Below, piece after piece: positions 17,323-19,627 of a stretch of DNA of 21,073 nt. The notes under the pieces were generated by a model. It was not told where the DNA came from. It worked only from the letters and a program-made list of their open reading frames with translations, and searched no databases. The first letter of the stretch is position 1. Every line of letters begins with the position of its first letter. Origin of the DNA: a virus; IMG/VR virus record IMGVR_UViG_3300000117_000219, positions 4,422 to 25,494 of that record. One strand, 5' to 3'. The translations under genes were made by a program, and so were the position numbers.

Positions 17323-19374
17323 TTAAGCAGAAGCTTTATACATTTGTGCCCATTTTGAAGTTGCACCATCAATTAAATCGATGAAACCAAGTCTTTGTGA
17401 AGCCACAAGGACTCTTCTTTGGTTAGCTACTTCGTAGTCTGACTCAATTGTAACACCTCTTAATCTTGGCATTACATAGTTTCTTGGGTATACTGCAATA
17501 GCGTTGAACTTAGCAGCGGCTTTAGTTGCGAACTCGTCACACATTAGTACTCTTGAACCGAATACTTGGCCGATTTCACCATTTAGCTTAGTAGCCATGT
17601 CGCCAACTAGGTTAGCATCTTGGAACTCAGCATCTTCTAGAAGGTTATAATACACATCTTGTGATACGACATATACTACTTCTGAAGGGTTAACACCATA
17701 TTTACCCATATTCTTTCTTAGAGCAAGAAGGTCAGCTGCAGTTACAGCATCAGTTGACGCGAAAGTCCCTGATGGCTGTGTGTAGTCTGAATCATTTCTT
17801 GCAAGGTGTAATAGACCTTCGAAAGATGCACCACCAGTACCGAAAGCACCGTCAGCATCGTCACCAGCTAGAATAGCATTTTCAATTGCTCTAGCGTGTG
17901 ATCTTACCATTGACTCTCTAATTAAAGGAAGGATTGGTAAGATTGCATCTTCTTCAGTTTCATTACCTAAGTATGATTGTGAAATAAGTTTTTTGGTTGA
18001 AAGAGTTCTTTCTGTTAAATCAACCCCGCCATATGGTGAACCATATGTATCACCTCTTTCGGCTAAGTTACCGTGTGGTGATGCACCAGCAGCTGTTTGT
18101 GCTGAAGCGAATTCAGCGTAACCGCTATCTGGTAGGATTGGGATAATCATGTTTGCAGAAGTCATAGCAATTTCTCTAAATAGAGGTGCTAGAACTAATT
18201 CGTTTTGAATATCTCTTTCGATGTTTGTTGAAACAATCTGCTCGAAGTCTGCTGAAGAAACGCCAACACCTGAATGTGCGTTAACTTTTTCCATTAGACC
18301 TTTTGCCATATCATTGTCCCATCCTTTACCAGTAGCTAAACCAGCAAATTTTGCATCAATGATATCTTGTTCGAATTCCTTTTTCCAGTCGCCTTTACCA
18401 GATCTGTCACCAAAATGTCTTTTAGACTCACGAATACTCATGATTTCTTCTGACTTTTCAGCTAATTGCTTCTCTAGTTCATCGACTACTGATTTAAGGT
18501 CTTCATTCTTTTGATTAACTCTAGTTTCTAGGTCGTTCATTAGCCTTTCAGCTCCTGATAAACCTGCTTCAACTATAGTCTTTGTTTCTTCCTGTTTGGC
18601 TTCTTGAGCAGCCTTTTCTGATGCCTCTACAGCTTGCTTTTCTTCAAGCTCTTTAGCTTCTTTGGCCTTTTGCTCAGCTTGTTTCATTGCGATTGAAGTA
18701 GCAGTTTTTTCTGCAACTTCTTTTGCAAATGATTCAAGGTCAAAAGCGACTTCAGGAGATTTTTTTTCTTCTGACATATCAGTCTCCGTTGATGAGGATT
18801 TCTCCTCGCTTGGCTGCTCAATTTTAACAGCGTCTGCTGCTGCGGTTGAGTTAGCCTGTAAAATTTCTTTTTGGTAGCTTCTGTATTCTTCCATAGAATC
18901 AAATGATTTTGCTAATCCAAAGGTTGCTCCTTGGTTGCAAGGCACTGATACTACAGAAACTTCGAATAGTTCTGCGTCCTTTATTTTATATCCGTCGGTT
19001 TCAGTCATATATTCAGAATCCTTGCATCTAAAACCTACGGAAAATGCTCCAAGGACTCCATCTTTAACTAATTGGGTTATATCACCAGCAGCTTTTGATA
19101 TCTTTGCAGTGATATCTAAACCTTTATCTGTGACTTCTAAACCTGTTGCTCTACCAATTGGTTTATTGTAATCATGGTTAAAAAGAATAATAGGATTACT
19201 TTTAAAGTTTTCCAATCCCCCTTTTGTCCATGCTTCAGTCTCGATAATATCTCCAGCTCTATCTAGTCCATTTGTACTTGCAGAACCCTTAATATTAACT
19301 CCGCCATCATCAGTTTCACCTAATGATTTAAAAGTACTAGTCCAGTGATATATCTTTTCGTTATTTTTTGACAT
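17323..19374 (-). CDS. Fused prohead protease, scaffold and major capsid protein (HK97 fold)
   Basis: 683 aa in one frame. Residues about 10-155 are an S78-type prohead protease: His67 (LFNHDYNKPIG), Ser112 (GAFSVGF) and the segment AELFEVSVVSVP (134-145) hold the expected catalytic residues. Residues about 160-320 are charged, Glu/Lys/Ala-rich coiled coil, as in HK97 delta or scaffold domains. Residues about 330-683 are the capsid domain (IAMTSANMIIPILPDSGYAE, STKKLISQSYLGNE, RSHARAIENAILAGD, YEVANQRRVLVASQRLGF). Protease and capsid are separate genes in most relatives. The start has a strong AAAGGAGA 7 nt upstream and overlaps the previous gene by 14 nt. A second ribosome site before Met200 may yield a protease-free capsid precursor. 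Mature capsid is expected after the protease removes itself and the scaffold. Confidence 0.92.
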   Translation of the reverse strand: MSKNNEKIYHWTSTFKSLGETDDGGVNIKGSASTNGLDRAGDIIETEAWTKGGLENFKSNPIILFNHDYNKPIGRATGLEVTDKGLDITAKISKAAGDITQLVKDGVLGAFSVGFRCKDSEYMTETDGYKIKDAELFEVSVVSVPCNQGATFGLAKSFDSMEEYRSYQKEILQANSTAAADAVKIEQPSEEKSSSTETDMSEEKKSPEVAFDLESFAKEVAEKTATSIAMKQAEQKAKEAKELEEKQAVEASEKAAQEAKQEETKTIVEAGLSGAERLMNDLETRVNQKNEDLKSVVDELEKQLAEKSEEIMSIRESKRHFGDRSGKGDWKKEFEQDIIDAKFAGLATGKGWDNDMAKGLMEKVNAHSGVGVSSADFEQIVSTNIERDIQNELVLAPLFREIAMTSANMIIPILPDSGYAEFASAQTAAGASPHGNLAERGDTYGSPYGGVDLTERTLSTKKLISQSYLGNETEEDAILPILPLIRESMVRSHARAIENAILAGDDADGAFGTGGASFEGLLHLARNDSDYTQPSGTFASTDAVTAADLLALRKNMGKYGVNPSEVVYVVSQDVYYNLLEDAEFQDANLVGDMATKLNGEIGQVFGSRVLMCDEFATKAAAKFNAIAVYPRNYVMPRLRGVTIESDYEVANQRRVLVASQRLGFIDLIDGATSKWAQMYKASA
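18775..18787 (-). promoter_or_regulatory. Internal ribosome binding site and start (Met200) in the protease-capsid gene
   Basis: Within the fusion gene the transcript reads GGAG, a 6-nt spacer (ACTGAT), then ATG TCA GAA GAA. This is as good as the real start of the gene and falls exactly at the change from protease to scaffold. Starting here would give a 484-aa scaffold-capsid protein (17323-18777). Site and spacing are seen; use is inferred. Confidence 0.6.
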
Positions 19375-19627
19375 CTACTTTCTCCTTTACAACCTTTTTC
19401 TTAGGAGCAACCTTCTTAGGTGCTTCTTTTACTACAGGTGCTGGGACAGGATGTCTTTTAGCAACTACTGATAGTACTCTGTTCCAAGAACCAAATGCTC
19501 TTCTGAGTAAATAGTCTTTTACAGGTACGTTGTTGCCAAAACCTTTATAGGTAGCTAAATCCATAGTTTCAACGCCTTTGCTGGCTATGAAATCTGATAA
19601 AGCCTTTACCATCATATCTTTTGTCAT
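19361..19627 (-). CDS. Small lysine-rich protein between portal and protease, unknown function
   Basis: 88 aa, not recognised. The first ~58 residues look like a small helical domain (MVKALSDFIASKGVETMDLA, then NNVPVKDYLLRRAFGSWNRV). The last 30 are a Pro/Val/Lys-rich, strongly basic and probably disordered tail (VKEAPKKVAPKKKVVKEK). It is surely a gene: ATG overlaps the portal stop (TAATG), AGGA lies just upstream, and its end overlaps the capsid gene start by 14 nt. Between portal and protease one could expect a head-assembly or DNA-binding accessory protein. The basic tail would suit binding of DNA or of the acidic scaffold, but this is only a suggestion. Confidence 0.72.
   Translation of the reverse strand: MTKDMMVKALSDFIASKGVETMDLATYKGFGNNVPVKDYLLRRAFGSWNRVLSVVAKRHPVPAPVVKEAPKKVAPKKKVVKEKVDVKK

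Follow-up and report, generated by a model that had tools for sequence, protein, structure and literature searches.

The DNA considered here is a stretch of 21,073 nt, hereafter the window, which covers positions 4,422-25,494 of a 25,494-base virus record in IMG/VR. It belongs to an abundant group of marine phages with several hundred related contigs in that database. Encoded on its minus strand is a single open reading frame (ORF) in which a prohead protease, a scaffold and a major capsid protein are joined (Table 1). Pfam places Peptidase_S78 (PF04586) at residues 40-161 of this fusion (E 8.8e-16) and Phage_capsid (PF05065) at residues 411-663 of the same ORF, and the PHROG annotation combines a head maturation protease with a major head protein. 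The genes around the fusion encode the portal, an 88-aa ORF, head completion, tail completion (T5 p143 family), tail terminator, major tail protein, tail chaperone and tape measure. The 88-aa ORF, situated between the portal gene and the fusion, shares 14 bases with the beginning of the fused gene (window 19361-19374, minus strand), an arrangement that suggests translational coupling of the full-length start.

Fused protease-capsid genes are already known (PMC8306868, PMC8508860). Such genes, frequent in prophages and phages alike, have so far been read as single or self-cleaving polyproteins, a reading that does not explain how a head would keep its protease copies from reaching the hundreds. 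In HK97, prohead I has about 60 copies of the protease to 415 of the capsid protein (PMC12749128), and a fusion made at 1:1 would therefore be unusual; prohead I of T5 contains 775 capsid copies (PMC5292684). A conserved start at the junction of the domains would offer a direct answer and, if such a start is real, the true capsid start would be missing from the annotation of such genes.

Table 1. Features of the fused protease-capsid gene, in coordinates of the window.
Feature	Position	Strand	Basis or conservation
Shine-Dalgarno AAGGAG of full-length start	19382..19387	minus	sequence; predicted anti-SD pairing -8.7 kcal/mol
Full-length start ATG	19374-19372	minus	sequence
Fused gene, 683 aa: S78 prohead protease, scaffold (delta) coiled coil and HK97-type major capsid protein	17323..19374	minus	ORF/translation, Pfam, PHROG
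SL1: GGCU/AGCC, AA/C internal loop, CUCAA/UUGAG, inner hairpin CAGC-AGAC-GCUG	18812..18856	minus	consensus fold, pair counts, counterparts
SL2: GAGGA-GAAA-UCCUC, ends 6 nt before GGAG	18794..18807	minus	21 complementary arm pairs in 247 homologues; covariation
Internal Shine-Dalgarno GGAG	18787-18784	minus	GGAG in 223, AAGGA in 24 of 247 distinct homologues
Spacer ACTGAT, 6 nt	18783-18778	minus	length kept in 217/223 GGAG homologues; letters vary
Internal start ATG, Met200 of 683, in frame	18777-18775	minus	ATG in 247/247, then Ser in 247/247
Predicted second product: 484-aa scaffold-capsid protein, T5 pb8 equivalent	17323..18777	minus	alignment to T5-like phiR2-01 and Ceto

A probable internal start at the domain junction

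A first-pass annotation, made from the sequence alone, had placed a GGAG, a 6-nt spacer and an in-frame ATG at Met200, exactly at the junction of the protease with the scaffold and capsid. These elements are directly observed on the minus strand (...AACGGAGACTGATATGTCAGAA), and translation from Met200 yields the predicted 484-aa product. The placement at the junction is also correct. The AlphaFold model of the fusion is weak (mean pLDDT 56.8), with the protease at about residues 7-174, pLDDT below 50 at residues 172-213 and a long helix at 213-318; by its low-confidence stretch, and with the reserve due to such a model, Met200 is situated in a linker.

The motif of a single genome is, by itself, not beyond chance. 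Past residue 8 the ORF contains 16 Met codons; one of them is Met200, and two of the others have stronger predicted anti-SD (Shine-Dalgarno) pairing. Among 68 representative homologues, GGAG or AAGGA is found 4-16 nt upstream of 95 of 1006 other Met codons (9.4%), and for this reason the evidence must come from conservation of the motif, which is beyond chance. The internal SD is unremarkable in strength: within the window the predicted value is -6.6 kcal/mol for the internal start vs -8.7 kcal/mol for the full-length start, and the family means are -6.7 and -7.0 kcal/mol, respectively. Because the two starts have SDs of similar strength, the ratio of short to full-length product cannot be read from the sequence, and no excess of the short product is predicted.

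Homologues were gathered by six scans of IMG/VR and one genome scan, which returned 430 ORFs, 247 of them distinct, with about 60-100% identity to the window protein. They are related to one another and their counts are not independent trials; the 33 with less than 84% identity were used in the main hairpin tests. The junction is open, that is, the genes are fused, in all recovered homologues, and nine further loci missed by the search motif are likewise fused and carry the site. In one member (L431) the match extends over the full length of the protein although the longest frame contains only 431 aa of the capsid part, probably through a frame break or an error of assembly. Two others (L292 and L293; CAJWKH010000043.1 and CAJWKH010000042.1), whose proteins are 68% and 61% identical to that of the window, are clearly different members, and their contigs have been binned into one marine Gammaproteobacteria genome.

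Residue 200 is Met in every distinct homologue, within a linker where most neighbouring columns have an entropy of 1.5-2.9 bits, and a GGAG or AAGGA lies 4-16 nt upstream of it in all 247. The GGAG spacer is 6 nt long in 217 homologues and 9 nt in six, the remaining 24 being those with AAGGA. At the other conserved Met columns (230, 361, 404 and 556) such a motif is found upstream in only 0, 1, 0 and 2%. The choice of codons at the site is equally marked. The codon before GAG is ATG in 84 homologues, ACG in 71, CAG in 59, AAG in 25, GAG in six and AGG in two, with G as the third base every time, where the gene-wide usage of CAG, ACG and AAG is 22.5%, 4.5% and 27%; the codon that follows is GAG in 217 homologues vs 24.7% gene-wide. 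A synonymous-site scan of 85 representatives finds the strongest synonymous constraint of the whole gene here, at codons 171-201, with the top 9-codon windows at codons 170-202. The first-pass annotation had proposed to ask whether close homologues keep GGAG and ATG beyond what codon constraint requires. They do, since the ATG and the SD are kept throughout, across clades that differ in the residues at the site, and the choice of codons is unexplained by amino acids.

The invariant Met200-Ser201 would also suit a site at which the protease cuts itself free, such that the fusion is made at 1:1 and then cleaved, and autocatalytic cleavage has been proposed for the fusion of PAJU2 (PMC8306868). 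Amino-acid constraint, however, cannot give a third-position G fixed over six codons, nor the preference for GAG, nor the paired hairpins described below, and each clade has its own residues around the site (ETDMSEE, QEKPMSTD, KETKMSDT). Self-cleavage is a distinctly improbable account of the junction; it is not excluded, and may adjust the stoichiometry and coexist with internal initiation.

Counterparts in T5-like phages

The best named relatives of the fusion are T5-like phages, which share 34-39% identity over most of its length and have the protease and capsid as two genes. In all, 1014 phage records match the fusion, 563 of them over at least 80% of the query, and among the matches listed those that cover the query are T5-like. 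The likeness to these Demerecviridae extends from the homologous sequences of the protease (pb11) and the capsid precursor (pb8), the latter with a scaffold domain at its N-terminus, to the order of the head genes: portal, small ORF, protease, capsid, head completion, tail completion and tail terminator. Unlike the fusion, they encode protease and capsid in separate genes, and the capsid ATG follows a stop codon at a distance of 3-15 nt. In alignments to phiR2-01 and Ceto, the separate capsid gene is directly observed to begin no more than a few residues from Met200. The simplest history would be that a separate capsid gene lost the stop codon preceding it and kept its own start.

With such relatives, whose separate capsid start stands at the matching place, the motif could in principle be a non-functional relic of the ancestral capsid start. 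A relic would be expected to decay, yet this one is kept in all 247 homologues down to 60% identity and against the codon bias of the gene, and its spacing is kept while the letters of the spacer change; the possibility can scarcely be entertained. Internal initiation, the preferred reading, is the only one that explains at once the fixed G in third position, the ATG and its spacing, and the T5-like match. As judged from conservation, codon choice and the match to the T5-like capsid start, the internal in-frame start that the first-pass annotation inferred for this fusion is supported, its use in infected cells not having been shown.

The geometry of two hairpins described in the next section is not consistently present in T5-like phages. 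In some of them (L083, L296, L297) a CTAGC...GCTAG hairpin lies near the end of the protease gene, shortly before the capsid start, and may only reflect LAIAL-type codons.

Tandem hairpins upstream of the start

Two hairpins, SL1 and SL2, precede the internal start, and across homologues the pair ends about 4-9 nt before the SD. Their sequences are not fixed. Counterparts of SL1 with different sequence are found in L292, L293, L317 and L341, and its outer arms across clades are GGCU/AGCC, GACU/AGUC, CUGGU/ACCAG and GAGACU/AGUCUC. The arms of SL2 include GAGGA/UCCUC, GGGA/UCCC, GGGC/GCCC, GGC/GCC, ACGG/CCGU, GUGG/CCAC, GAGG/CCUC, ACAGUC/GACUGU and GCAGAC/GUCUGC. Stability alone is no evidence for such an element, as other positions of the gene score as high and codon 200 ranks only 7 of 644 by hairpin score. 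Codons 110-119 form a second region of low folding energy relative to synonymous shuffles (mean z -2.1, 33 representatives).

The case for the hairpins accordingly rests on synonymous shuffles and covariation rather than on energy. In the 33 representatives below 84% identity, the mean stem score of SL2 is 11.5, vs 6.97 +/- 0.60 for 200 shuffles of synonymous codons, none of which exceeds 8.45. When 66 sequences are aligned plainly with MAFFT, 40 changes on both sides of a stem keep the pair, vs 13.3 +/- 2.5 when shuffled. In an alignment fitted to the model (A4), changes on both sides are seen for each of the 18 pairs and amount to 113 cells vs 24.1 +/- 4.6 shuffled and 9-18 when slid; this alignment is biased to structure by construction, and includes three matches away from the junction. 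The covariation of the hairpins is a direct observation, and by these tests they are inferred to be under selection as structure, with no role having been shown. They appear to represent an undescribed RNA element, and no Rfam family comes near its gathering score with it. The covariance model (R1) has one significant match each in a 105-kb and a 65-kb record.

Two other identities for the hairpins were rejected. An intrinsic terminator is ruled out by the absence of a T run after SL2 on reading of the sequences. The main-clade stem (GGCUAACUC...CAGCAGACGC; window 18812-18860, minus strand) resembles helix 18 of 16S rRNA (the 530 loop, 16S 505-545) by eye only; the score of this mimic was reached by 14 (window-type), 107 and 381 of 1000 shuffles for three members, and neither R1 nor nhmmer found a 16S match.

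Stem-loops inside ORFs can stimulate programmed frameshifting, which here would release the protease alone, and in the main clade a -1-frame stop does lie at the start of SL1. An in-phase slippery heptamer is nonetheless present in only four of 68 representatives, and no stop near the start is kept in the -1 or the +1 frame (1/68 and 5/68), leaving a frameshift very improbable. The invariant unpaired bases that SL1 of the main clade holds besides its pairs could instead mark a translational operator, at which a bound protein (capsid, protease or host factor) tunes the internal start. Clades have only the architecture in common, their loops and unpaired letters being different; this pattern is more readily understood if the structure matters than if a protein recognises the sequence, and an operator is considered quite unlikely. 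The position of two stable hairpins just upstream of the start, with A/U-rich sequence before SL1, is also compatible with an RNA processing site, where an upstream cut would produce a capsid-only mRNA protected by its 5' hairpins and translated from Met200. No transcript data bear on this proposal, which still needs the Met200 start and is in effect a variant of internal initiation; it is thought unlikely, while deserving to be kept in mind. For initiation within the intact mRNA or a processed one, the hairpins are inferred to serve the Met200 start, whether they keep the SD free of pairing, slow or space out the ribosomes arriving from upstream, or shield the end of a processed mRNA. The element constitutes a natural system in which to study start-site function inside an actively translated gene.

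Two probable products from one gene, and other fusions

Under the preferred reading of internal initiation, one mRNA would give rise to two in-frame proteins with a common C-terminus. The upstream start would produce the full-length protease-scaffold-capsid protein, and the internal ribosome-binding site at Met200 the scaffold-capsid protein alone. This internal site would be the original start of the capsid gene, which formerly stood alone, as it does in T5-like phages, and would have outlasted the joining of the two genes. Most capsid subunits would then be made without the protease domain, and a minority would carry the protease into the prohead. Internal initiation at Met200 is well supported, on evidence from nucleotide sequence in the absence of protein, ribosome-profiling or transcript data, and the use of Met200 by ribosomes remains an inference. 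That its purpose is to set the protease:capsid ratio is likely, and inferred. The reading as a whole, with two products, a start at Met200 and the ratio as the likely purpose, is held with considerable confidence. A bolder proposal, to which an even chance is given, is that the hairpins, SD and start are parts of one RNA module acting in cis, a structured element for internal ribosome entry within a translated phage gene that fixes the share of protease-bearing capsid, and that unrelated fusions have reached the same design without hairpins.

Nested genes of this kind have precedents. The herpesvirus UL26/UL26.5 genes encode nested, C-co-terminal protease-scaffold and scaffold products and keep the share of protease low; these arise, unlike the products predicted here, from transcripts with promoters of their own, and the fusion does not include the capsid protein. 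The lambda C/Nu3 arrangement, with an in-frame internal scaffold start inside the protease gene, is an apt precedent. A Mu-like protease gene also has an in-frame internal start for its scaffold (PMC4378225). The fusion in the window shares with the Mu and lambda systems an N-terminal protease, an in-frame internal start with an SD, and a structural short product with a shared C-terminus. It differs in that their short product is the scaffold alone, with the capsid protein in its own gene, whereas here the short product would contain both the scaffold and the major capsid protein, and two RNA hairpins precede its start. Taken singly, neither a nested start in a protease gene nor a fusion of protease with capsid is new. 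In the open-access literature searched, however, no test of an internal start in such a fusion was found, nor were the combination of fusion and nested start, the two-hairpin element or the recurrence across fusions described below.

Protease and HK97-type capsid also share one ORF in the capsid polyprotein of PAJU2, gp5 of MD8, gp8 of Stenotrophomonas phage S1 and the Rhodobacter capsulatus phages; for RcMamaDuck, one of the last, the predicted junction start is Met214. Where described, such fusions are read as one multi-domain or self-cleaved protein. They have low sequence similarity to the fusion in the window, and no upstream twin hairpins were seen in those that were folded. Most of the examined fusions of this type carry an SD and start at the junction, PAJU2 and MD8 being outside the sample. 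Further fused genes were gathered from other prophages with phrog_617 and phrog_4523, of which 19 are distinct with a recognisable S78 motif; many of these come from one family and do not represent 19 independent cases. A start codon with an SD of -7.5 kcal/mol or better lies 15-85 codons past the S78 motif in 17 of the 19, vs 10 of 99 other windows. Among named fused phages, an SD-like core with a start is present at the junction in 10 of 11 (vs 11 of 50 control windows), and an SD at -7.5 or better in four of 11 (vs 3 of 50). No twin hairpins were found in the folded members of these other families, with fold z of +0.7 to -1.5 vs -3 to -5 in the window family. As the junction SD and start are present in unrelated fusions, the capsid start has probably been missed in many prophage annotations.

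Examples of the junction motif are GAGGAGGTTGTT-ATG in L456 and AGAGGAGCCGAA-ATG in L471, and an SD and start are likewise present in L457 and the ClpP-type fusion L458. The unrelated S78 and ClpP fusions with such a junction comprise these four together with L470, L481, L482, L507, L511 and L514.
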